A stretch of 64,000 bases of DNA, from the NCBI GenBank assembly GCA_020852275.1, contig JADZBE010000010.1, positions 62,001 through 126,000 on the forward strand, read 5' to 3'. This DNA comes from Phycisphaerales bacterium (lineage in GTDB: Bacteria; Planctomycetota; Phycisphaerae; UBA1845). The notes beneath the pieces are model-generated. The model was given only the letters and a program-made list of their open reading frames with translations, was not told where the DNA came from and did no database searches. The stretch's first letter is position 1, and every line of letters begins with the position of its first letter. This document shows positions 9,596 through 62,161 of the stretch, one piece after another. Both the position numbers and the translations under genes were made by a program.

Positions 9596-10483
9596 TCATT
9601 CGATCCGTTCCAGCGACAGGTCCATCGCCGGCGCCGAGTGCGTCAGCGCTCCGACGGAAATCCGCTCCACGCCCGTTTCCGCAATCGCACGGACGGTCTG
9701 AAGATTCACGCCGCCCGATGCCTCCAGCTCGACTTTGCCCTTCAGGCCCCAATCATCGCGCAGCCGCACGGCCTCTGCGAGTTCCCCGATCCTGAAATTG
9801 TCCAGCAGCACGACGTGAATGCCCACGACCTTCAGCAGCTCCTGTGCCTGCGCGAAGTCCTGGGCCTCGACCTCGACGAACACCGGCGGCTGCGTCAGCG
9901 CGCCGAGCCGGTTGAGCATCCCGAACACCTCGCCCGCGAGCCGCGCCGTGGGGATGCCCGCCAGGTGGTTGTCCTTCAGCAGCACGGCGTCGTACAGACC
10001 GCTGCGGTGGCTGCACCCGCCCCCGCAGCGCACGGCGTGCTTCTCGATCAGCCGCCACCCCGGCGTGGTCTTGCGCGTATCGAGGATTCGCGCCCGCGTG
10101 CCCGCCACGGCGTCACAGTATTTCCGCGTCAGCGTCGCAACGCCGGACAGCCGCTGGAGGAAGTTGAGCATCACGCGCTCCGCCGCGAGCAGGCTGTTCA
10201 ACGGACCGCTCAGCAGGGCGAGGCGCGCCGACGGGAGCTTCACCGCCGAGCCATCGTACCCTTGCATCGTCCACTCGATGCCCAGTCGCTTGTCATAGGC
10301 GGCAAGGACGGCCTCGGCGACCGCGCGCCCGGCGAACACGCCCGGCTGCTTGGCAACCAGCTCGAAGCGCGACGGTCGATCGGGAGAATCGAGCAAGGCC
10401 GTGGTCACGTCGCCGTCGCCGAGGTCTTCGCGCCGCGCCGCGTCGATCAGCTCGTGCATCGCCTTGTCCAGGACCAGTTCCAT
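9596..10483 (-). CDS. nadC: Nicotinate-nucleotide pyrophosphorylase (carboxylating)
   Basis: Makes nicotinate mononucleotide, CO2 and pyrophosphate from quinolinate and PRPP, in NAD synthesis. The 295-residue product has the family's normal length. Diagnostic segments are REDLGDGDVTT, LNFLQRLSGVATLT, the substrate-binding DTRKTTPGWRLIEKHAV followed by RCGGGCSHR, AVLLKDNH, VEVEAQD, and ELEASGGVNLQTVRAIAETGVERISVGALTHS. The frame runs 22 codons further upstream, but MELVLDKAMHELI at 10483 matches known starts. nadA and nadB are not in the window. Confidence 0.95.
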   Translation of the reverse strand: MELVLDKAMHELIDAARREDLGDGDVTTALLDSPDRPSRFELVAKQPGVFAGRAVAEAVLAAYDKRLGIEWTMQGYDGSAVKLPSARLALLSGPLNSLLAAERVMLNFLQRLSGVATLTRKYCDAVAGTRARILDTRKTTPGWRLIEKHAVRCGGGCSHRSGLYDAVLLKDNHLAGIPTARLAGEVFGMLNRLGALTQPPVFVEVEAQDFAQAQELLKVVGIHVVLLDNFRIGELAEAVRLRDDWGLKGKVELEASGGVNLQTVRAIAETGVERISVGALTHSAPAMDLSLERIE

Positions 10484-10553
10484 GATGCGATGCGCCCCGG
10501 CCGCGTCAACCACCGAGCGGCACGCATGACAGTGCGTTGCGAAGAGCAACGCC

Positions 10554-10610
10554 CGTCATTCCCGCGCAGGCAAAAACACAGCCTCGTCATTCCCGCGCAG
10601 GCGGAAATCC
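10554..10610. repeat. Two family R repeats
   Basis: Two copies, 10554-10571 (truncated) and 10585-10610 (nearly full: CGTCATTCCCGCGCAGGCGG), lie in the 223-base gap upstream of nadC. Confidence 0.8.
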
Positions 10611-10706
10611 AGCGGCCCGGCGAGTCGCTCCGTATCCATCCCTGCGCCTGGACCCCCGCCGGCGCGGGGGAGACGGAAAAAAAGCACGCGAACCGGAGAT
10701 GCGCGC

Positions 10707-12527
10707 CTACTCCTCCGACTCCGGCCGGCCCGCATTGTCATCCGGGCCGAACATCTCGGCGAGATTCGCCTCCTCCAGGTCAAACTGCGCGTCGATGCTG
10801 GCGCTGCTGCACAGCGTGTAAAGCGCGTGGACAACCGTGGTGTAGTCCAGCCCCAATCCGGTCACGTTGCCGCGGACCTCGGCCGCGTCCTCGCCGAGCA
10901 GCGTGATCAGCGGCGTTACGTCGGGCTTCGCAAGGATGGGCGGGGACGTGTGACCGCTCGCGGGGACCGTGCGCAGCAGCGTCAACTGATCGGTCTGCGA
11001 TTCGGCGTTGATGAGCAGGACGCCATCGGGCGAGCGGTAGAAGACGGGCGTGCGGCAGTGAAGGGCGTCGCCGATGACCGCGATGCGCCGCTCGCCGGAG
11101 CGGCGGGCGTGGATGATCGGCGGCTGCGAACTGCCGACGACGTCCAGGACGAAGTTGTCGCCGCCCACGATGGAGCGGTCCAGCGCTGGGTCGCCGCGCC
11201 GCGCAAGCTCCTCGTAGGCCTCGATGCGCACGCGCGGGTCCGGATCGTCCAGCAGCTTGCGCAGCGGCGTGGCGGCGTCGCGGACTTTCCCGGCCGCCCC
11301 GAGCGCGCGAATCGCTTGGAAGCGGAACGGGCTGTCCTTGTCGCCCGCAAGCCGGGCGAGCGGCTGAACGGCCACGTCGTCGCCCAGGCGCAGGCCCGCG
11401 GCGGCGGCGTGAAACGAGACGTAATCCTGCTTGTGAGCGTACAGCGGCGTGAGGAACGGCAGCGACGCGTCGCCGATGGCCTCGAACGCCAGCGCGATCG
11501 CCACGTGCGGCGCGCCCGGCTGGACCATTTCCTGCGCCAGCTCCGCGCTGCGCTGGGCGGGGAAGCCGTCCTGGTTGGGCAGGTAGAGATGCTGGACGAG
11601 GAGCAGAAAGTGCGTCGCGTCGTCCTTGAACTCCTCGGGGATGGTCAGTTGCACGAACGCGGGGGCGATGGCGTCGGCGACCTTGCCCTTCTTCGAGAAC
11701 TTGGTGTTGATGCGGTCCTCGATCTGCATGGCCACGCTCGGCGACGGCTCCGTCAGCACGAGCCGAAGGCGCCGGCTCTCGGTGACGACGCCCCCGCCGA
11801 GGATCATGCCTTGCTTCGGATTGCTCTCCGTGGCCGCGCCTTCGTCGCGGGTGAACGGGTTCATGAACACCGGGCCCGCGCTGAAGGCGAGGGTGCGCCC
11901 GGAGAGCATGATAGCATCCGTCGAATCGTCCTGAACGCGGACGCCGTATTCGAGCTCGCTGGTGAAGAGCCGCCCGCCGCGAAGCGACGTGGTCTCCGTT
12001 TCAGGCAGCGCGCTGACGAACACGTCGAAGTGTGTGCCCTCCGCGGCGGCGCCCGGGATCACGCCCTCGACCAGCACCACGGCCGTGTCCGCGTCGCGGA
12101 TGAGTTGCTCCGGCGTGAGGCTGACGTTGCTGACGCGCGTGGACTTCAGCGGGTAGCGCTTCTCAATCTGCTGCACCAGCCGGTTGAGGACGTGCGGCGG
12201 GCAGTCCGTGCTGCCGTTCTTTCCCAGACCGACCACCAGCCCGTACCCGCGCACCTTCATCGGCGCCAGTCCCTGAAAGGTCGCGCGCTCGCCGATCGTG
12301 TCGCGGTAGCTCGCGGACGAGGCCGCCGCCGTCTTGCGCGGGTCCACGCCGAGCGCGTGCTTGCGATAGTCCTCCGTCTCCCATGTGCAGGATGCGAAGA
12401 AGAGGCAGCCGCACAAAGCCGCAGACAGGAGCGCGCCGCGGCGCAAACGCGACCCTGAGGCCGCGCGCACCCTGATGCGGGCAGGCGGAAGCGACGTCCC
12501 GGCGCGGTCGTCAAGCTGTTTCAACAT
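10707..12527 (-). CDS. FlgI-like lipoprotein with HEAT-type repeats
   Basis: 606 residues from the ATG at 12527 (a TTG at 12596 is in frame but less likely). A lipobox FFASC follows a hydrophobic segment. Residues about 75-330 resemble flagellar P-ring protein FlgI: VRGYGLVVGLGKNGST, NVSLTPEQLIRDADTAVVLV, GTHFDVFVSALPETETTSLR followed by GGRLFTSEL. After this come HEAT-like helices (PFRFQAIRALGAAGKVRDAA; DPDPRVRIEAYEELARRGDP) and a beta-rich, acidic C-terminus. No other flagellar gene is present, and true FlgI is neither lipidated nor this long, so the domain probably serves another envelope structure (inference). Confidence 0.75.
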   Translation of the reverse strand: MLKQLDDRAGTSLPPARIRVRAASGSRLRRGALLSAALCGCLFFASCTWETEDYRKHALGVDPRKTAAASSASYRDTIGERATFQGLAPMKVRGYGLVVGLGKNGSTDCPPHVLNRLVQQIEKRYPLKSTRVSNVSLTPEQLIRDADTAVVLVEGVIPGAAAEGTHFDVFVSALPETETTSLRGGRLFTSELEYGVRVQDDSTDAIMLSGRTLAFSAGPVFMNPFTRDEGAATESNPKQGMILGGGVVTESRRLRLVLTEPSPSVAMQIEDRINTKFSKKGKVADAIAPAFVQLTIPEEFKDDATHFLLLVQHLYLPNQDGFPAQRSAELAQEMVQPGAPHVAIALAFEAIGDASLPFLTPLYAHKQDYVSFHAAAAGLRLGDDVAVQPLARLAGDKDSPFRFQAIRALGAAGKVRDAATPLRKLLDDPDPRVRIEAYEELARRGDPALDRSIVGGDNFVLDVVGSSQPPIIHARRSGERRIAVIGDALHCRTPVFYRSPDGVLLINAESQTDQLTLLRTVPASGHTSPPILAKPDVTPLITLLGEDAAEVRGNVTGLGLDYTTVVHALYTLCSSASIDAQFDLEEANLAEMFGPDDNAGRPESEE

Positions 12528-37763: not shown

Positions 37764-38741
37764 TCACAGCAGTCCCAAGCTCTGCAGGTCCTCGATCGGC
37801 TCCATGAGGCTGCAGCTTCCAAAGGATATCGCAAAGTGCCGCCTCGCCGCGCGGAGGTCATCGAGACCGATGGCTTGCCTGCCCCAGCGCATGGCCTCCG
37901 CGGTCACTGAGAAATCGCGGGAATCCTCGCGCTCCAGCAACGCGGCGATTTCAAGCTCGGCGAGGTTTGCGCTGTGGGCGAGTGCGGCGGCCGCGAAGAC
38001 GTTGAGGAAGCCGTGCATTTTCGCGCCGATCTCGCGGGAGTTGTGTCGCAGCGGATGGTGCAGCCCGGCGGTGGCCTTGAAGGGGACGCCCGCGTCGCGG
38101 CAGGCGGCGATGAAGAACGCGACCTGCTCGACGGCGGGAATCTGATGCGCTTCGACGCCGCCGGTGCGGATTTTCAGGGCGAGCATCGGATGCGTCTTGC
38201 GCACCGCGGACGCCTGCAGAATCACGTTCGCTGCCTCGCGCCGCCAGTCGGCAGAGAACGGAACCTCAAGGAACAGCGAGGACGACGGTCGAGCGGGGGC
38301 GGCCGAGAACTCGCTCCATGCCGTCGCGGCCGACTGGATGCACTGCCGCAGTTCCTCCGCGCCGGCGGCGACGACAGCCGGCGGAAGCCGCGTCTCGAGG
38401 ACGTCCATCACGATGCGACCGCCGAGGCGTTGATGCAGTTCGGCGGCGGCCTGAAGGTCGGCGCCGAACCCGTCGAGGAATGCTCGCGCCGTTTCACCGC
38501 CGCGCCCAAGCCCCGAAAAGCGCCAGACCGGCTCATCGGCTTGCGCGAGCTTCAGGTAAATCGCATCGACCTCCCCAAGGCGCGACGCCGGGCAGACGAA
38601 TCGCGCCAGCATCCAGGCGTGCGGGCCGCGAAGATACGCCGCGTATCCGCGCAGCGCTTCCGGCAGCGGCAGCTTCGCCGGCGGGAACAGCCCGGCGTAG
38701 TCCAGCACCTCGTGCAGCAGCGCCTGCAGGGATTCTCTCAT
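37764..38741 (-). CDS. Conserved-looking protein of unknown function
   Basis: 325 residues from the ATG at 38741, whose first bases overlap the stop of the M23 gene (ATGA, 38738-38741). Segments such as HEVLDYAGLFPPAKLPLPEA, VMDVLETRLPP, LFLEVPFSADW, LALKIRTGGVEAHQIPAVEQ, VPFKATAGLHHPLRH and FLNVFAAAALAHSANLAELE alternate strands and helices in the manner of a TIM barrel, but I know no characterised family. It is the last gene of the five-gene cluster starting at 43475; fahA follows after 277 bases with a repeat. Confidence 0.72.
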   Translation of the reverse strand: MRESLQALLHEVLDYAGLFPPAKLPLPEALRGYAAYLRGPHAWMLARFVCPASRLGEVDAIYLKLAQADEPVWRFSGLGRGGETARAFLDGFGADLQAAAELHQRLGGRIVMDVLETRLPPAVVAAGAEELRQCIQSAATAWSEFSAAPARPSSSLFLEVPFSADWRREAANVILQASAVRKTHPMLALKIRTGGVEAHQIPAVEQVAFFIAACRDAGVPFKATAGLHHPLRHNSREIGAKMHGFLNVFAAAALAHSANLAELEIAALLEREDSRDFSVTAEAMRWGRQAIGLDDLRAARRHFAISFGSCSLMEPIEDLQSLGLL

Positions 38742-39784
38742 GGGAGGTTTGTTCCAGCAGTCCGGCTCGTGGCGGGACGCTTGCAGCCCGCCCACTCGCC
38801 GGTGAACTTTCCGCACGCGGCGCGCTTGCGGAGGCTCGCGGGAGCGATCGTGCGATTGCGCGACCGGAGCATGTCGCCCTCTTCCGCGACGCCGTCGGGG
38901 CGCGGCGATTCCGCCAGGCCGGTGGCGTAAGGCGAGCCATCGGCGCGACGCGTCTCGAAGTGCAGGTGCGGCTCGAAGGACAAGCCTGAATTTCCGCTCA
39001 GCGCAATGACCTGCCCGAGCACAACCGAATCACCGATCTCCGCGAGCACGCCCATTTCATCAAGGTGAACATACCGGGTCAGAAGCCCGTCCCCGTGATC
39101 CAGCATGACGAAATTGGCCGGACCTTCCGCAACGGGGTCATCGGGATCATGGCTGGGCTGATCCTCGCGCAGGTCCACGACGACACCGCTCCGCGCGGCC
39201 AGCACGGACGTGCCCACCGGCATCCTGAAATCCCACGCATACTCGTCGCCGTGCGTGTACGGCCCGAACGGACCCTGCAGGACGACGGCGCTCACCGCGG
39301 CGGGGAAGGGCGCGAGCATCTGCGGCAAGTCGCTTTCGCGGATGCGCTCAAAGGTGGCGGTGACGCGGGAATCCTCTTCAAGTCGAATGGCGAGGTCGGG
39401 AGCGAGCGAGTCCGCGTCGCCGGTGAAGCCGGCAAACATCCACCCTTCATCCGCCACCGCCAGCAACTCCACGCTCGCCCCAACGTCGTGGCAGGAGCGC
39501 CCGTCAAGGGTGCGCGCGGCGTCGGAGCGCTCGACCGTGCCGCGACCTTGAACGACGACGTCCAAGGCAAGCTGCCCGCGGACCGCGCAGTTCAGCAGAA
39601 TCCGCCCCGGCTCGTCGCCCGCAGGGGTCCATGCGCCGAAGTCGAGGCCGCCGTCCGAGCATGAAGCGAGCAGCAGCGCCGCCGTGGTGCACAGCAGCCT
39701 GGCCGAAGCGCGCAGCAGGCCCGCCAAGGCGCATATCGCGGCTTTCGCGCCGCCGCGCGGTTTGAACGCGGGCGAGCCGCTCAA
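38738..39784 (-). CDS. M23-family (LytM-type) peptidase lipoprotein
   Basis: 348 residues. The start is TTG at 39784, chosen because AAGGAG lies 8 bases upstream and the codon overlaps the preceding stop (TTGA, 39781-39784). A lipobox LLLASC anchors it. Residues about 85-165 form an InlB-B-repeat-like domain (RGTVERSDAARTLDG; GWMFAGFTGDADSLAPDLAI). The peptidase domain has THGDEYAWDF with zinc ligands His and Asp, YVHLDEMG, and PHLHFE with the catalytic and ligand His. It probably cuts peptide crosslinks in peptidoglycan or other envelope substrates. Its stop overlaps the start of the next gene. Confidence 0.9.
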   Translation of the reverse strand: MSGSPAFKPRGGAKAAICALAGLLRASARLLCTTAALLLASCSDGGLDFGAWTPAGDEPGRILLNCAVRGQLALDVVVQGRGTVERSDAARTLDGRSCHDVGASVELLAVADEGWMFAGFTGDADSLAPDLAIRLEEDSRVTATFERIRESDLPQMLAPFPAAVSAVVLQGPFGPYTHGDEYAWDFRMPVGTSVLAARSGVVVDLREDQPSHDPDDPVAEGPANFVMLDHGDGLLTRYVHLDEMGVLAEIGDSVVLGQVIALSGNSGLSFEPHLHFETRRADGSPYATGLAESPRPDGVAEEGDMLRSRNRTIAPASLRKRAACGKFTGEWAGCKRPATSRTAGTNLP

Positions 39785-41535
39785 GGCTTCGGCTCCTTGC
39801 TGCCGGCGGCGGATTGATCTTCCGGCGGCGAGTCCTTGCCGGTCGATTCGCCCTTGCCGGATGGCGCACCCTTCCCGGCCGAGCCACCCTTGTCTTCGGA
39901 AGGCTCCTCGTCGTCGCGATAGCCCAAGGCCTTGAGCGCTCGGCGCTGCGCCTTTTCTTCCGCCGAAAGCTCCTCAACCTTGACCGGTTCAAGGTCTTTC
40001 AAGTCGAACGCGTAGCCAAGCTGATCGCGGAAGAACACCAGCCCGTTGTTCTCCGCGATCGTGCGGTCTTCGCGCACTCGACGGATCAGCTCGTCAAAGG
40101 TCGTGCGGATCGCTTCCTCCGCCGCGACCGCGAACGCGTCCAGCTCCGCGGACAGGCCCGCGCCTTGCGACGCGTTCATGGCCGCGCCGTCTGCAAGGCG
40201 GATCAACTGCGGCCCCAGCGGCAGGTGCTTGCCGTTGCTCGTCGGGCTGACTTTCCAGATCGGGCTTTCCGGCGGTCGGCGGTCCGCGCGGTAGTACATC
40301 CCGTTCATCACGACGCCGCGCTGGGAGAAGCTTTCGCAGAAGACGGGTTTCTCAGGGAGCTCGGCCTCGCCGCGGAGGACGGCCGACAGCGAGCGCCCGG
40401 TCGCCTTCGCGCCGGCCTGTACACCCAGCGCCTCCGTCATCGTGGCGAAGACATCGACCGCGCCGACCGGCGCTTTGACCAAGCCGTTCGATCGACATCC
40501 CGCGCCGGCGACGGCCAACGGGACATGCACCTGGTCGAGTCCCACCGAATGCGAGTGCGCGAAGTAGAACTGATCCTCGGAGAACGCCTCGCCGTGGTCC
40601 GACGTGAGCACGATCAGCGTGTTGTCGTACAGGAGGAGCTTCTCGAAGCGGTCGAAGAGGGCCTGAATCTGGCGGTCGAGATACAGAATCTCGTTGTCAT
40701 ATCGCAGCGAGTACTGCGACACCGCGCGCTCCGCGTCCATGACCTGGTACGTGGGGATCGACTTGTAGCCGGAGGTGTCCGTGCCGACGTCGAGGAGCGT
40801 GTCGCGCTCGCCGGGGATGGGCGGCTCGCCGAAAGTCTGGAGCTCGATAGGCGGGGAGTAGGGTCCGTGCGGATCCTGGTAATGAATCCACATGAAGAAC
40901 GGAGCGTCGTGGATCTGGTCAAGTATTTCGATCGCTTCCTGCGTGGTGATGGAGGCGTCCTTGGGCAGGTAGCGCTCGTGGGCGCGGTCGAACTGAAGAT
41001 CGGAGTAGATGGGGAAACCCTGATGCAGGCCGAGCCGACGGTTGAGAGTCGGGTTGCTCACCACGGCTGCGGTGCGCATGCCTTTGTCGCGGCACAGCTC
41101 GGCGAGCGTGGTCGTCTTGCCGGACAGCTTGAAGAAGCGTCCGTTGTCGAGCATGACGGACGTGAAGCTCGGATACAGCCCGGTCATCAAGGAGATATGC
41201 GAGGGCGCCGTGTACGAGGCCGAGGAGAACGCCCACTCGAAGCGGACGCCCCGGGCCATGAAGCGGTCCATATTCGGCGACGTCGGGCGGCGGTAGCCGT
41301 AAGCGGAGAGTCGGTCGGCGCGGAGCGTGTCGATCGTGATGAGAATGAGGTTCTTTGCGGAGACCGCGCCGGTGGCGGGCGAGGCTTGCGGATGCAACTC
41401 CGCGTCAACGGAGAGCGGCGCGGCGGCTGCGACGGTCAGCGCGGCGGCGGTGACGGTCGCCGTGGCAGCGAGCATCGTCCCACACGCGATCAGCATGGCG
41501 ACCCAGCCCGTTTCATGTCGAGGGTTTAATGTCAT
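39781..41535 (-). CDS. Exported sulfatase-fold enzyme with Thr at the nucleophile position
   Basis: 584 residues. An N-terminal Ala-rich hydrophobic segment (signal or anchor) precedes the alkaline phosphatase/sulfatase fold: LILITIDTLRADRLSAYGYR with metal-binding Asp, the nucleophile block YTAPSHISLMTGLYP, FFMWIHYQDPHGPYSPP, and LTSDHGEAFSEDQ. A true sulfatase has Cys or Ser in CxPSR for conversion to formylglycine; here the position is Thr (TAPSH), as in phosphoglycerol and phosphoethanolamine transferases. It may be a phosphoester transferase or hydrolase rather than a sulfatase (inference). The C-terminus is low-complexity (Lys/Ser/Gly/Glu). The stop overlaps the M23 start. Confidence 0.85.
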   Translation of the reverse strand: MTLNPRHETGWVAMLIACGTMLAATATVTAAALTVAAAAPLSVDAELHPQASPATGAVSAKNLILITIDTLRADRLSAYGYRRPTSPNMDRFMARGVRFEWAFSSASYTAPSHISLMTGLYPSFTSVMLDNGRFFKLSGKTTTLAELCRDKGMRTAAVVSNPTLNRRLGLHQGFPIYSDLQFDRAHERYLPKDASITTQEAIEILDQIHDAPFFMWIHYQDPHGPYSPPIELQTFGEPPIPGERDTLLDVGTDTSGYKSIPTYQVMDAERAVSQYSLRYDNEILYLDRQIQALFDRFEKLLLYDNTLIVLTSDHGEAFSEDQFYFAHSHSVGLDQVHVPLAVAGAGCRSNGLVKAPVGAVDVFATMTEALGVQAGAKATGRSLSAVLRGEAELPEKPVFCESFSQRGVVMNGMYYRADRRPPESPIWKVSPTSNGKHLPLGPQLIRLADGAAMNASQGAGLSAELDAFAVAAEEAIRTTFDELIRRVREDRTIAENNGLVFFRDQLGYAFDLKDLEPVKVEELSAEEKAQRRALKALGYRDDEEPSEDKGGSAGKGAPSGKGESTGKDSPPEDQSAAGSKEPKP

Positions 41536-41583
41536 TCCAGCGGTCCGTGGTGATTCTTCCGCGCGATCGCATGCGAGTTGCGG

Positions 41584-42621
41584 TCAGCGCGGAATGCTGA
41601 CCGGCCCACCAGTTTGCAGGCTTTCCCGCTCCGCCTCAAGCATCCGCGTCACGCCGATCGCGTCGTCCAGCGTGGAGCGTGCCGCCTCGCGGTCTTGCGA
41701 GATGCACTCGACGAAGTATCGCACCTCGGCCTCGTAACCGGTTTCCGCCGGCAAGTCCACGCTTGCGCTGCGACCCTCCACATGCAGCACGAGCGGCGCC
41801 GCGCGGGCGAGATCGAACTCCGCCGTCGCGCGCTCAAACCTGACGACATACGTCATCCTGAACCCGAATCCCGGAGCATGCCGCCAGCCCGCCTCCGCGA
41901 CGACGTGCGCCGGGCCAAGCGGAAAGCGATACAGGGCGGTCAGATGATCGAGGTCCCCGGCGGCGCACACGGCATCCGGATCGCCGAAGCACCCGCGGAC
42001 CACGTCCGCGTCGTGCAGATGCAGGTCGAAGAGCGCGCCGCCCGTCTGCTCACTCTGCTCGTAAAACTCCGGCGCCCAGTTCGGCGCGCTGCCCAGCCGG
42101 CGGAACACGGCGCTGAGCACGCGCCCGTAAGTCCGTGATTCGATCGTCTCCTTCAGCCATGTCCACCCCGGCCAGAAGCGCATGCACATCGCCGGCATGA
42201 CGATGTGCCCCGCGCCCCGCGCCGCGCGCGCCAGTCGCTCGACCTCCGCGCGGCACAGTGCCACCGGCTTCTCCACAAGCACGTGCTTGCCCGCCGCGAT
42301 GGCCGCCAGCGCCAGCTCGACGTGCGTCGGCGTGTGCGTGCAGATGCTCACGGCGTGGACATCCGCGTCGCGCAGCATCTCGCCCGCCTCCGCATACGCC
42401 CGCACCCTCGAGGCATCAAACAATCCTGCAACGGACGCGCCGGTCGAGAGATTCCCGGCGGATTTCGCGCGTCCCTCGCGGCGGACCGGGTCCCGGTCGC
42501 ACACGGCCACGAGCCGGCACGCAAGCCCGGCGGCCGCGGCTCTGGCATACGCCTGCACGTGCGTGCGGCCCATGAAGCCCAGTCCGATCACGCCGATGCC
42601 CAGCGTCCGCGGCGCGCTCAT
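41584..42621 (-). CDS. Gfo/Idh/MocA-family oxidoreductase
   Basis: 345 residues. The NAD(P)-binding segment is GIGVIGLGFMGRTHVQAYAR; the core follows with DVHAVSICTHTPTHVELALA and the family's AGKHVLVEKPVALCRAEVE (EKP motif). HDADVVRGCFGD continues the sugar-binding half. It oxidises or reduces a sugar or inositol derivative. Its start overlaps the stop of the TIM-barrel isomerase gene (ATGA, 42618-42621), so the two are translated together and probably act on the same sugar. Confidence 0.93.
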   Translation of the reverse strand: MSAPRTLGIGVIGLGFMGRTHVQAYARAAAAGLACRLVAVCDRDPVRREGRAKSAGNLSTGASVAGLFDASRVRAYAEAGEMLRDADVHAVSICTHTPTHVELALAAIAAGKHVLVEKPVALCRAEVERLARAARGAGHIVMPAMCMRFWPGWTWLKETIESRTYGRVLSAVFRRLGSAPNWAPEFYEQSEQTGGALFDLHLHDADVVRGCFGDPDAVCAAGDLDHLTALYRFPLGPAHVVAEAGWRHAPGFGFRMTYVVRFERATAEFDLARAAPLVLHVEGRSASVDLPAETGYEAEVRYFVECISQDREAARSTLDDAIGVTRMLEAERESLQTGGPVSIPR

Positions 42622-43475
42622 GTGCGTGACTCCGGCGCCGATTGAACGGGTCGAGCCTGCAGCATGGACTGCACGCACTGCACGGCATGACGCACGTCCG
42701 CAACGCGATCCTCACCCGACTCCCGCTCGATGACCCAGTCGCCGTGCACGCGTTCGCGGCGCAGCACGTCAAGGAAGCTCGGCCAGTCCACCGCGCCGTC
42801 GCCGAATCGCGTTTCTTCACCCCATGTGCCCGGCGTCGGCGAGGGTCGCGCGTCCTTGATATGAATCCCAACGACCCGCGGCGCGAGTTGTTGCACGGCG
42901 GAAACCGGGTCGCCCATGCCGTAGAGGATCATGTTCGCCGGGTCGAAATTGACGCCCAGCGTGGGGCAGGCGATTTCGTCCAGCACGTCGAGCAGCGTCG
43001 CGGCCGTCTCCTGGCCCGTCTCGAAACCCACGCGGATGCCGCGCGCGGCGAACGCTTCCACCACGCGCCGCAGGCGGTCGATCATGCGTTGACGAAGAGG
43101 ATCGTGTCGATCGTGAGGCAGGAAACCGGCGTGGAAGGTCACCAGCGGAATGCCCAGACGCGCGGCGAGGGCGGCGTTCTCGCGAGCTGCCCGGAGATTC
43201 TCCTCCCAGTGCTCGTCGAGTCGCACGCCGCCGGTGCGACGAATGGAATCCAGCGACGTGTAATCCTCGGCGCGCATGGCCATCATGCCGGAGATGATCT
43301 CTACGTCTCCCCTTTCCAGCGCGGCGACCGTTGCCTCCATGGGCCAATCGCCGCGACGGAGAGGGTCCAGCGCGAGCTGCAGGAAGCAAACGCCGGCGGA
43401 CTGAACCTTACCCGCCAAGTCCGTCGCGGACGCGGGTTGCAGCGACCATGAGCACACGCCCAGATGCGGCATCAT
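42618..43475 (-). CDS. Sugar phosphate isomerase/epimerase-like TIM-barrel protein
   Basis: 285 residues from the ATG at 43475 (MMPHLGVCSWSLQPA); the frame is open further upstream but that stretch has poor composition. AP-endonuclease-2-like TIM barrel: IPLVTFHAGFLP, IRVGFETGQETAATLLDVLD, LGVNFDPANMILYGMGDP, VVGIHIKDARPS and GDGAVDWPSFLDVLRR, with the usual Glu, Asp, His and Glu metal positions (FETGQ, NFDPAN, HIKDA, VIERESG). The first gene of a tightly packed five-gene cluster. Confidence 0.9.
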   Translation of the reverse strand: MMPHLGVCSWSLQPASATDLAGKVQSAGVCFLQLALDPLRRGDWPMEATVAALERGDVEIISGMMAMRAEDYTSLDSIRRTGGVRLDEHWEENLRAARENAALAARLGIPLVTFHAGFLPHDRHDPLRQRMIDRLRRVVEAFAARGIRVGFETGQETAATLLDVLDEIACPTLGVNFDPANMILYGMGDPVSAVQQLAPRVVGIHIKDARPSPTPGTWGEETRFGDGAVDWPSFLDVLRRERVHGDWVIERESGEDRVADVRHAVQCVQSMLQARPVQSAPESRT

Positions 43476-43675
43476 GTCGGCGAGTTGTACGGGTAAACGC
43501 GCCCGCGGCAAACCGTACAGGGCGATCCCATCAAGGCAGCGCCGAACCGGGACGGTAAGCCCGCTCGCCCGTCGCTGCGCGACGGGAGCGCCGCGCAGGT
43601 TGGCAGTCACTCCGCGACGTGCGCCTCGCGCAGCAGCGACGCACCGTCTGGAATGACGTGGAATCAAGACACGCA

Positions 43676-44389
43676 TCACGCCGGTGCCGGCGCTGCCTCA
43701 ACCAGCAGCGGGTCGGAAATCGACGCGGCGCGAAAGCCCTCGTATCGGGCGCGACACGATTCGCATCGTCCACAAGCACGGGCCGACTGCGTCCCGCACG
43801 ACCACGTGTGCTCCAGCGGCACTTCGAACCGCTGCCCCAGCCGAACGATGTCCGCGTAGCTTTCGTCGATGAGCGGCGCTTCGACGCGGATGCACCGGAC
43901 GGACGGCAGCGCCGTCGCCAACATGCAGTTGTACGCATGAAGAAACTCGCGGCGGCGATCGGGGCGACCCTGGTCATACGGCACGCCAAGCTGGGCTTCA
44001 TCCGCCGCCTGGCTTGCGCCGGTGACAATCCGATCCGCTCCGCTTCGGGCGGCGAGTTGAACGCCCATCGACAGCAGCGCCGGCAGAATACCCAGCGAGC
44101 CGCCGGGTCCGTCGGGTTCGGCATCCAACTGCCAGCGCGACCGGCTGTCCGGTCGGGCGTGACGCGGCGTCGCTCCCTGAGGCGCCTCGGATGCCGCGGT
44201 CCACATGAAGCGCACGCACCGGGCCTGCGGCCAGGCCGCGAAGAGGTTGTCCAATGCGGCGAGTCTGCGCTGGGCGGGTTCAGCGCCGATGCCCACGCAA
44301 AGGAACGTTACCGGGCCGCCCCCCCAACCGCCCGCGCCGACGGCGGCGGCGACCGCGGCCTTGAGACCCCCGTTGCTGAGAATCACCAT
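43676..44389 (-). CDS. QueC-like protein with altered ATP loop
   Basis: 237 residues from the ATG at 44389, with GGAGGG about 16 bases upstream. Homology to 7-cyano-7-deazaguanine synthase is plain in the middle and end: LGILPALLSMGVQLAARSGA, RIVTGASQAADEAQLG, DRRREFLHAYNCMLATAL and the zinc site HTWSCG-x-CGRCESCRARYEGF. But the N-terminal pyrophosphatase loop, SGGxDS in QueC, reads LSNGGLKAAVAAA. It lacks the Asp-Ser, so it may not activate the acid with ATP in the usual way. queD, queE and queF are not seen nearby. Either a decayed enzyme or a relative with a new activity. Confidence 0.75.
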   Translation of the reverse strand: MVILSNGGLKAAVAAAVGAGGWGGGPVTFLCVGIGAEPAQRRLAALDNLFAAWPQARCVRFMWTAASEAPQGATPRHARPDSRSRWQLDAEPDGPGGSLGILPALLSMGVQLAARSGADRIVTGASQAADEAQLGVPYDQGRPDRRREFLHAYNCMLATALPSVRCIRVEAPLIDESYADIVRLGQRFEVPLEHTWSCGTQSARACGRCESCRARYEGFRAASISDPLLVEAAPAPA

Positions 44390-44543
44390 GCCCGACACGA
44401 GTTCCCTCCGGCAACCTGGCCGGCTGCGCGCCACCCAGTGCGCAAACACCCGGCGAACGCCGCATGGCACACTGCATGAAACGCCGCATCTTGAATCGGC
44501 TCGGATTGGAAAAAGTCTTGAAGCGCTGCCGAATCGCGCGAGA

Positions 44544-45281
44544 TCAGGCGGACCCGGCGGCGTCGCGGGCCAGGACGTAGATCGTCCAAGGTGGCGTCGT
44601 TGTTTCGCTGACCCAGGCGCAAGGCTCGTCCGGGCGACCGAGCGGCCGGTGTACGTCGAGCACCCGCAGCCCGGCGGCGGCGTACACGTCGCGGTAGGCG
44701 TCATCCGGCCAGAGGATGTCCACGCACGCGCGGGGGTCCGTCAGCGCGGTGTTGATGATCTCCACCGGGTCGCCGCACCTCGCCTGGCGGTTCCGCGGAA
44801 AGTCCTTGGTGCTGAACGAGGCCCACTCGTGCCAGTAGATTTCGGGCGAGGACACGAGGTTGATGAGGCGTCCGTTTGGGCGAAGCACGCGGTGCAGTTG
44901 CGTGAACAGCGCGAGCTTCTTGTCGCGCGTCGGCACATTGTCGAAGGTGAACGCCGAGAGGATCAGGTCAAAGGACTCCTCGGCGAACTGACGCAGCTCG
45001 CCATCGGCGACGAGCCGGTAATCCCCCTGCGGGTGGGTCGATTGCGCCCGCGACACCATGGCCGGCGAGATGTCCACGCCGATCGCGTCGAAGCCATGGC
45101 GCGTCAGGAATCGCGTCGAGCGTCCCGCTCCGCAGCCGAAGTCCAGTGCCCGGCGCCCTTGAGCGTGCCGGGAAAACAAGCCCGGAAGGTCTCGAAACGC
45201 CAGGTAGTAAGTTCCGGGAAACTCCAGCTTCTCATACGCAGCGGCGTAGGCGTCGTCCTCGTAGCAATTGCGGAAATCCAT
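44544..45281 (-). CDS. Class I SAM-dependent methyltransferase
   Basis: 245 residues. The SAM-binding loop is RALDFGCGAGRSTRFL, followed by GFDAIGVDISPAMVSRAQ (acidic end of strand 2), SFDLILSAFTFDNVP (motif post-I to IV) and HRVLRPNGRLINLVSSPEIY. A small-molecule or lipid methyltransferase of the UbiE/Methyltransf_11 type; the substrate cannot be told. It lies 154 bases upstream of the QueC-like gene on the same strand. Confidence 0.9.
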   Translation of the reverse strand: MDFRNCYEDDAYAAAYEKLEFPGTYYLAFRDLPGLFSRHAQGRRALDFGCGAGRSTRFLTRHGFDAIGVDISPAMVSRAQSTHPQGDYRLVADGELRQFAEESFDLILSAFTFDNVPTRDKKLALFTQLHRVLRPNGRLINLVSSPEIYWHEWASFSTKDFPRNRQARCGDPVEIINTALTDPRACVDILWPDDAYRDVYAAAGLRVLDVHRPLGRPDEPCAWVSETTTPPWTIYVLARDAAGSA

Positions 45282-45421
45282 CCCAACACTCTAACTCGTG
45301 CGCCGGCGCTCAAACAAGCGCAACCCGGCTCCAACACGCCGGGAGCGGCCCAAGGTCGGGTGGCATGGCTTCACGCGCAGCGGGTAGCCATGCTGAGGCG
45401 CAGAGGCACGAGGGGAACCCT

Positions 45422-45457
45422 CATGCTCACGCCGATTACGGCGAGAGCATGCCACCC
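45422..45457. repeat. Palindromic repeat, family T
   Basis: CATGCTCACGCCG and CGGCGAGAGCATG around ATTA, then CCACCCACC. It lies in the 200-base gap between the XRE-S24 and methyltransferase genes. Confidence 0.8.
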
Positions 45458-45481
45458 ACCGTGGCGCGAGACGTCCCTGCG

Positions 45482-46162
45482 CTACAAGTCCCGGCTGACG
45501 AGGCGCAGCACAATGCCTTGGATGGAGAAGGGCGTGCGGGCGTCCACCAGCGCGGGCGGCAGCCGCGGGTTGTCGCCGCGCAGAATGACGACGCGGTCGC
45601 CGTCGCGATGCTCGACGCTGACGCGCTTCAGGGTGGGCTGACCATCGACGAGGCACGCGCAGATGCGCCCCTGCACGTGCTCGGCCTCGACGCCGGGGCG
45701 GTACTGCACCAGCACGATGTCGCCGGGCTTCAGCGTCGGCTCCATGCTGTCGAACGCGAGCCGCAGACAGTAATGGTCCCTGGCCCACAGGTGCCGCAGC
45801 ACGGGAAACATCTCAAGCTGCTCCTGCGACGTGGAGGGCGGTCCGGCCGGGATCGCACCGAACAGCGGCAGCTCGCGCGCCGCCAGCGGCTGCGGCGCAT
45901 CATGTTCCGCCCCCCCCCCGATGAGCACGCCCTGCGGCACACCCAGACCCACCGCCAGGGCGTCCAGCATCCGCGGGGAAGGAGTCTTGCGATCGCGCTC
46001 GATCTGCGAGAGGAAGCCCTGATTGAGATTGACCTTCGCGGCCAGCTCCGTCTGAGTCAGCCCCAGCGCCCGGCGATATCGGCAGACGCGCTGCCCGAGC
46101 GTCTCCCGGGCGCGTCGCGCAATCTGATCAGCAAGACGCAAGTTCGAGGCCATATTGCCCAT
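45482..46162 (-). CDS. XRE-family regulator with S24 (LexA-like) peptidase domain
   Basis: About 226 residues from the ATG at 46162; an in-frame ATG at 46153 is equally good. An N-terminal helix-turn-helix (RRALGLTQTELAAKVNLNQG, FLSQIERDRKTPS) is followed by a linker and an S24 domain with the catalytic Ser in AFDSMEPTLKPGDIVLV and the Lys in GQPTLKRVSV. Such proteins repress genes until self-cleavage or act as stress regulators. The gene start overlaps three GGGYAAYAW-like units that could be its own operator. The expected Ala-Gly cleavage pair before the domain is probably in GAIPAG, close to but not identical to LexA. Confidence 0.88.
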   Translation of the reverse strand: MGNMASNLRLADQIARRARETLGQRVCRYRRALGLTQTELAAKVNLNQGFLSQIERDRKTPSPRMLDALAVGLGVPQGVLIGGGAEHDAPQPLAARELPLFGAIPAGPPSTSQEQLEMFPVLRHLWARDHYCLRLAFDSMEPTLKPGDIVLVQYRPGVEAEHVQGRICACLVDGQPTLKRVSVEHRDGDRVVILRGDNPRLPPALVDARTPFSIQGIVLRLVSRDL

Positions 46163-46183
46163 TATTACCCGGCGATGTTGCCC
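46148..46183 (-). promoter_or_regulatory. Candidate operator of the XRE-S24 gene
   Basis: On the minus strand three units follow one another: GGGCAACAT (46183-46175), GGGTAATAA (46170-46162), GGGCAATAT (46160-46152); the outer two extend to GGGCAACATCGCC and GGGCAATATGGCC. They cover the start codon, where a self-binding repressor would act. Confidence 0.35.
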
Positions 46184-46189
46184 TGACCA

Positions 46190-47098
46190 CTCTGCCCACG
46201 ATGCCGGGGACCGCGAGAGAATCGGCGGCCCCACCGAGCTTGGGATTCTCTCCTTGAGGCGTGTGATCTATGAGGAATCATGCAAGCCCCGGCGCTTTTT
46301 CCGGGATTGGATATGAGGTTGTCGGCGCCGGCGGCGATCCGGACGTTGAAGAATCGGGTCCGATCCGGCGTGGAGCGGAAGTCCCTCGAGTTGCTGCGGA
46401 AGTAATTCGCGATATTTCGTGCGCCGGCACGTTGTAGGCTGCTGCGCCAGGACATCGTGGAGCGCTGGGAATTGGGGGTCTGCCCGGCAGCGCGGGACCG
46501 GGGTTGGGGCATCGCCGCGGGGTTGGGACATGGGTTCGGGACCGACCCAGGCCATGGGAAAAAACCTGACACTGCGCCTCGAGCGTCCGGGCATGAAGTG
46601 GGACGCCGACCCTGCCGCAGACCTGATGAACCTCCTCGCCTTGGACGAGAGTCGAGCCGGGTCAACGGACTGGGACACCCCAGGATTGGCGAAACGCCCG
46701 AAAACGCGGCCAGACTGCTTCCGAACGGGCGTGGCCAGTCTTGCTGGCATCCGATGTGTGCGCTGCGCCCGGACGCTCATTTGCCGGGGGGCGTCTCGCC
46801 CGGAGGACGCGCGATCGCTGCCAGGGACTTGCGGTCCTTGGCGGGAAGCGCGTCTCACTCTCTTGCGCCCGGAAGTCGCGCGGAGCCTTCGTTCGCCCTC
46901 CGGGCGATGAGAACCGGGATGAACCCTCTCCAGGGGCTTCAAACCCCTCGCAACCCTCGTGCGCCCTGCGGGCGAACTGCCGGTGCCAGAATCTTCGGCC
47001 AGGCTGCTTCCGAACCCCCGATTCTCCAAGCACTTGCGTTCCGCGCCTTTCCCGTCCAACATGTCCCGGTTCGGATCGGAGGGCTGTGAGGTTTTTCC
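46190..47098. other. Long gene-poor region upstream of the HU gene
   Basis: About 900 bases. Open frames here are Arg/Ser/Pro-rich and unconvincing. It contains a diverged direct repeat (GGCCAGACTGCTTCCGAAC near 46710 and GGCCAGGCTGCTTCCGAAC near 46997) and three closely spaced hairpins (46893-46907, 46932-46948, 46961-46974), the outer two nearly identical (GCCCTCCGGGC, GCCCTGCGGGC). It could hold a structured RNA or a decayed gene. Confidence 0.4.
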
Positions 47099-61910: not shown

Positions 61911-62161
61911 GTGGGGAGAGGGGCATTACGGCCGGCGGCGCGCCGGAGCACGCGGCGAGCCGTGGAGGATCAGGCGCGATCGCTTACCGCTGCGCCGCCC
62001 GCGCGCGCTGCGGCGGACCCGTGCCACGCGCCCGCTGCGACCCATCCGCTGCACGCGCCAATCAGGCGCCCCTCGGAATGCGGTCGCCCTGATTCCATCG
62101 CGGCAAGGTTCGACGGAGGGCTGGAGGGACCGTGGTGGAGATTAGAACCGCGCATGACAGC

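Follow-up and report, generated by a model that had tools for sequence, protein, structure and literature searches.

The gene with the probable extent 43676..44398 (minus strand) in the Phycisphaerales bacterium DNA analyzed in this study (64,000 nucleotides, positions 62,001 to 126,000 of contig JADZBE010000010.1; hereafter the window) encodes a member of the QueC sequence family that is predicted to adopt the QueC fold. With a probability of roughly 0.7, this protein, named pQueC, is a conserved pseudoenzyme with a QueC-type zinc site, representing a displaced ancestral QueC that was retained for another job.

The frame had been delimited in a preliminary description of the window as 43676-44389 (minus strand), with an ATG start at 44389 that would yield a protein of 237 amino acids. 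It is an open frame, and its translation includes MVILSNGGLKAAVAAA; the start, however, is more likely a GTG at 44398 (240 amino acids), since a GGAGG motif ends 6 nt upstream of this codon and the resulting length agrees with the N-terminus of the genus mates. In a named genome collection, the genus mates found were Phycisphaerae bacterium Bin_14R, Planctomycetota bacterium BroJett003, and Phycisphaerae bacterium MAG_25. The loop reported in that description, LSNGGLKAA in place of SGGxDS, was read in the open frame. The replacing motif NGGLKA spans 44357..44374 (minus strand; residues 6-11 of the window protein P0001) and carries Lys10 at the position of the Asp. This replacement is consistent with the proposal that activation of ATP is lost or altered, and a loss would be the natural reading of the sequence. 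The zinc-site cysteines C198, C206, C209, and C212 (43754..43798, minus strand) were all present as claimed, although their arrangement is C-x7-C-x2-C-x2-C, one residue below the published C-x8-C-x2-C-x2-C that had been described. The core, in contrast, had been called intact, and only one of nine catalytic-signature positions of canonical QueC is retained: I and L occupy the positions of R99 and N100 in VPxRN, R and R those of Y131 and C134 in YPDC (where D133 is kept), and the zinc-region Tyr Y189 is replaced by G.

The window protein matched the Pfam QueC family (PF06508) at an E-value of 5e-21 and 75.6 bits (cut-off 22), with the match confined to residues 105-221. PF06508 also matched 40 of 40 members of the A1 profile set. 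It scored 59.5 bits against a cut-off of 150.3 for the QueC equivalog TIGR00364, whose SGGxDS motif is replaced by NGGLKA, and in PADLOC it was recognized only by the generic QueC model PDLC00911 (38.2 bits). An AlphaFold2 model built from a 40-row alignment reached a pLDDT of 81.6 and a pTM of 0.80, with residues 81-96 poorly modelled. Its best structural match was the QueC of B. subtilis (3bl5; Z 20.7, rmsd 2.6, 186 aligned; VIA), followed by QueC 2pg3 (Z 19.5), Cap9 9nto (Z 18.8), and QatC 9y01 (Z 16.0), and Cap9 and QueC also took the top ranks in Foldseek. Hence pQueC has the sequence family, the predicted fold, and the Cys4 zinc site in common with QueC, but has lost the SGGxDS Asp, VPxRN, the YPDC Cys, and Y189.

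Paralogs of the same kind were found throughout the class Phycisphaerae. Among 60 relatives searched, the paralog sequence was read in 42 (the window, 40 loci, and genome G248), with a readable loop in 41. An enlarged set included 66 readable sequences from 66 genomes, all of this one class, distributed over the families f1, f4, f5, f82, f83, f85, f86, f88, f90, f92, and f101 (f-numbers are working family labels, as type A and type B below are our own labels for canonical QueC). As the class-wide A1 profile search, at an E-value of 1e-15, may miss members of the f4/f5 type, the class holds at least 66; the set leaves out G220 (locus L067, with the loop unreadable at a contig end), the intermediate L127, and a candidate in G230. 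A locus search with the window protein alone returned 30 stretches, none of which was confirmed. With a simple gene caller, the frame of the paralog survived at 25 of 41 loci and the long frame of the window did not, partly because N-terminally extended frames overlap neighbouring genes.

In two trees built from chosen subsets of the sequences, the paralogs were separated from canonical QueC. The 94-row tree placed 40 order-level paralogs and 54 canonical sequences on opposite sides of a branch with a support of 100/100, and the 74-row tree grouped 45 paralogs with a support of 100/99. Longer branches than those of canonical QueC, including long terminal ones, were observed for the paralogs in both trees, and mean column identity was 38% in the 40-row paralog alignment. 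The paralog was not found in the relatives G211, G213, G231, G236, G242, and G246, which indicates that the clade is dispensable. A separate canonical QueC lineage with SGGLDSTVLLY and VPNRN was also observed in f85 (L115 and L116, from G243 and G237).

The residues lost were compared in an alignment of 129 rows (66 paralogs, 46 type A, 16 type B, and one intermediate). The loop Asp was missing in 66 of 66 paralogs and retained in every type A and type B row. The preliminary description had proposed to check whether the homologues form a conserved clade; they do, and its refuting condition, a loop restored in the nearest relatives, was not observed in any of the 66. The position is occupied by N in 36 rows, K in 14, R in five, G and H in three each, A in two, and V, Q, and L in one each, in loops such as SGGINS, SGGIKS, GGGIKG, SGGLHS, SGGMRS, and NNGSINS, or NGGLRS in f5. 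Similarly, the Asn of VPxRN and the Cys of YPDC were missing in all 66. Other positions were kept sporadically: Y189 in 10, Y131 in 15, D133 in 30, and the Tyr of YxQ in 19 paralogs, with R99 aligned to R in three and K165 to K in one. Over the nine signature residues, 23 paralog rows keep none, 20 keep one, 13 keep two, eight keep three, and two keep four. Universal among the 66 are all four cysteines of the zinc site and the first Gly of the loop, along with a single Ala and a single Pro. The second loop Gly is present in 52 and the second loop Ser in 56, most f92 rows being without this Gly. The loop backbone is thus largely kept, and nucleotide binding may remain possible.

Published mutants and structures bear on these positions. 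In E. coli QueC, replacement of Y35, R99, Y131, or Y189 by alanine abolishes activity (PMC13329287), QatC holds the beta and gamma phosphates of ATP with S156, D160, and S161, and the Y129/D131 pair of QueC corresponds to the substrate-binding pair with which Cap9 holds deazaguanine (PMC13279940). Since most of the catalytic residues are gone, these data suggest that catalysis has been lost in the paralogs. One sequence, L127 (G262 in f93; ~10065-10769, minus strand), retains SGGIDS and has lost VPxRN and YPDC. It may represent an intermediate, in which case the active site would have been lost stepwise.

Two known groups of non-QueC proteins with the QueC fold were considered as homes for pQueC. 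QatC of the Qat anti-phage system has a remodelled pocket and has lost YPDC and VPxRN, as pQueC has, but it keeps SGGxDS, is about 400 amino acids long, and neighbours qatA and qatD (PMC13329287). Cap9 of type IV CBASS keeps the canonical catalytic core and lies adjacent to a CD-NTase gene (PMC13329287), whereas in pQueC that core is lost. PADLOC detected neither a Qat partner nor a CD-NTase in a scan of six window proteins. In a 2026 survey of the family, QatC, Cap9, LarE, GMPS, and the other clusters described in detail all carry SGGxDS, and three small archaeal clusters were left unanalysed (PMC13329287). The Planctomycetota paralogs may lie unseen inside the largest cluster of that survey. 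A literature search, conducted mostly outside subscription papers and preprints, returned no description of a QueC pseudoenzyme.

The comparison with QatC and Cap9 also bears on the main rival explanation, in which pQueC would still be a ligase that consumes ATP, with a protein or a small molecule as the substrate of its rebuilt pocket and Asn, Lys, or Arg instead of the Asp. Such substrates have been proposed for QatC and Cap9, and the QatC pocket is remodelled while its catalysis stays essential (PMC13279940). The universal first loop Gly, the frequent second loop Ser, and the prevalence of N at the Asp position are also compatible with a ligase. However, both QatC and Cap9 keep SGGxDS (PMC13329287), and the S156A/S161A change in QatC abolishes defence (PMC13279940). 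Moreover, nine different residues occupy the Asp position of the paralogs, unlike in a preserved active site, and the second loop Gly is also gone in most f92 rows. A ligase is therefore considered unlikely.

The host genome (5.05 Mb assembly, 97% complete) encodes a canonical QueC on another contig, with SGGLDS, VPARN, and YPDC and a score of 239 bits compared to 75 for pQueC. Hence the second, normal queC for which a check had been suggested does exist. QueD, QueF, TGT, QueA, and QueE (the last identified with a two-sequence profile at an E-value of 6.6e-18) are likewise all on contigs other than that of the window, so that for the genes searched the earlier observation holds that no other queuosine gene occurs in it. 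Linkage to queD and queE, frequent but not universal for QueC, is accordingly absent at pQueC. With these pathway genes and a normal QueC encoded elsewhere, pQueC is surplus to the queuosine pathway of its host.

In 12 genomes the paralog was present without a canonical QueC and without a QueE match (G240, G244, G248, G251, G254, G257, G363, G205, G374, G219, G250, and G247; in G363 and G374, the absence of canonical QueC holds among the matches listed in the A1 profile search). G240 and G244 are single-contig assemblies. Besides G363 and G374, the remaining ten all encode TGT and QueA, and nine of them had no above-cut-off match to QueF, the exception being G247. G208 (81% complete, with no QueA or QueD match) was excluded from this count. 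The retention of the paralog in these 12 genomes indicates that its job is independent of preQ0 synthesis. It also argues, together with the lack of any adjacent pathway gene, against the modified 7-deazapurine pathway that had been suggested for the gene. A DNA modification of the dpd type was considered and found no support, with a single TGT-family gene in the window genome. Genomes with TGT and QueA and without the synthesis genes suggest a salvage of preQ1. The gene set of this type (no QueC, no QueE, and no above-cut-off QueF) was observed in G240, G244, G248, G250, G251, G254, G257, G205, and G219. Separately, no QueE match was found in G278, an f96 genome with a type B QueC.

An alternative role in this salvage was accordingly weighed, in which pQueC would act alongside TGT on 7-deazaguanines obtained by salvage, either preQ1 or queuine. 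Besides the persistence of TGT and QueA in paralog-only genomes, it draws on the position of tgt, which lies 0.9-2.5 kb downstream of the paralog in G210 and G220 and about 0.9 kb downstream, at a contig end, in G228. A conserved protein of about 185 amino acids is encoded upstream of tgt in some genomes of the family (L064:9094-9648, L067:7181-7864, and L056:506-1120; also beside tgt in L170, L173, and L178), and two copies scanned against Pfam gave no match. This intervening gene also adjoins tgt at loci without a neighbouring paralog (three of the 12 further tgt loci), and tgt adjacency was therefore rejected as strong evidence. Additionally, f84 has TGT and no paralog, and the substrate-binding Tyr/Asp pair is lost in most paralogs for the Tyr and in more than half for the Asp. 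Participation in salvage appears improbable.

Co-occurrence of the paralog with canonical QueC in many f1, f82, and f85 genomes would be expected if pQueC were a regulatory or structural subunit of that enzyme, but the 12 genomes with neither QueC nor QueE largely refute this idea and leave it very little credence. Conversely, G236, G242, and G246 encode QueC, QueE, and QueF, and the paralog was not found in them. Taken together, the two patterns make a substitute QueC unlikely as well.

Selection was estimated as dN/dS by the Nei-Gojobori method for seven paralog pairs and three canonical pairs. For the paralog, the genus mates gave 0.21, 0.26, and 0.21, the f88 pair 0.063, the f92 pair 0.078, and two additional f1 pairs 0.126 and 0.191 (range 0.063-0.262). 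Canonical QueC from these three genus mates gave 0.15, 0.14, and 0.18 (range 0.142-0.175). In the paralog pairs compared, purifying selection thus acts on the clade. Decay, which had been raised as a possibility for the gene and for which the loss of most catalytic residues, the fast evolution, and the absence from several relatives could speak, is thus most improbable given an open frame without stops, dN/dS of 0.06-0.26 in relatives, the zinc cysteines in every paralog, and class-wide persistence.

The neighbours of the paralog vary by family, and none is conserved class-wide. Downstream of pQueC in the window lie, on the minus strand, a TIM-barrel isomerase-like gene (PF01261; 42618..43475, with the start estimated from a homologue match), a Gfo/Idh/MocA oxidoreductase gene (41584..42678), and a sulfatase-family gene (39781..41535), an order observed in four of four genomes of the genus. 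No Rfam match was found at window positions 41000-47000. Elsewhere on the minus strand, 45482-46234 encodes a protein with an HTH and an S24-peptidase domain, a LexA-like make-up that scored below the LexA cut-off (39 vs 111 bits), and 37764-38816 holds a 350-amino-acid open reading frame with no Pfam match at an E-value of 0.1.

The genomic position of canonical QueC in two families provided insights into the origin of the paralog. In the f96 and f89 genomes sampled, a single QueC was found among the matches listed, of type B and with all motifs. In six of six such loci, the genes for MurI, a HEAT-repeat protein, and a zinc-type dehydrogenase (ADH) lie upstream on the same strand, and YfiH is also present in the two f89 loci. 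The paralog occupies a similar place in other families: all four genes precede it in the one f101 locus, HEAT and MurI do so in two of two f90 loci (ADH in one of them), ADH in eight of 15 f92 loci, and ADH with YfiH in seven of seven f88 loci. The order MurI, HEAT, ADH, (YfiH), and QueC or paralog was seen across families in L126, L128, L129, L130, L131, L132, and L133. In f1, f82, and f85 the paralog is relocated. Its neighbour there is an aminotransferase gene in f82, an enolase-superfamily gene in f85, and, across much of f1, a divergent DUF1015 gene. ADH was also tried as an obligate partner and rejected: at an E-value of 1e-40 it was found in 28 of 38 genomes, including f84 without a paralog, and no ADH relative was found in G000, G200, G201, and G234, all of which have the paralog.

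Because it shares its operon position with the canonical QueC of two families, the paralog is probably the ancestral QueC of the class, still in its old operon place, which was displaced by type A and retained. The backbone of the 74-row tree runs from the paralogs through L127, the type B of f89 and f96, and the other type B to type A; the direction of displacement depends on where the root lies.

The pQueC lineage would thus descend from the ancestral QueC, on which two families continue to rely at that operon position. Its work would have passed to a second QueC lineage with its gene at another site, pQueC would have stopped making preQ0, and it may survive in a binding or scaffolding role without catalysis, through its zinc module and Rossmann-like core. 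Such a role is tentatively favoured, at somewhat less than even odds, because conservation is confined to the zinc module and a handful of structural positions, and the catalytic positions are variable. It is conceivable, though rather doubtful, that the ancestral QueC of Planctomycetota was already performing a second, non-catalytic job linked to the MurI/HEAT/ADH/YfiH operon, shed its active site once a second QueC lineage had assumed preQ0 synthesis, and persists through the class as a zinc-domain adaptor outside 7-deazaguanine chemistry.

In genome surveys, the paralogs score above the PF06508 threshold, and queuosine synthesis would be overcounted. For the family, a class-wide branch without SGGxDS, kept in genomes without preQ0 synthesis, would represent a natural example in which a homologue displaced an enzyme that was nevertheless retained for another role.
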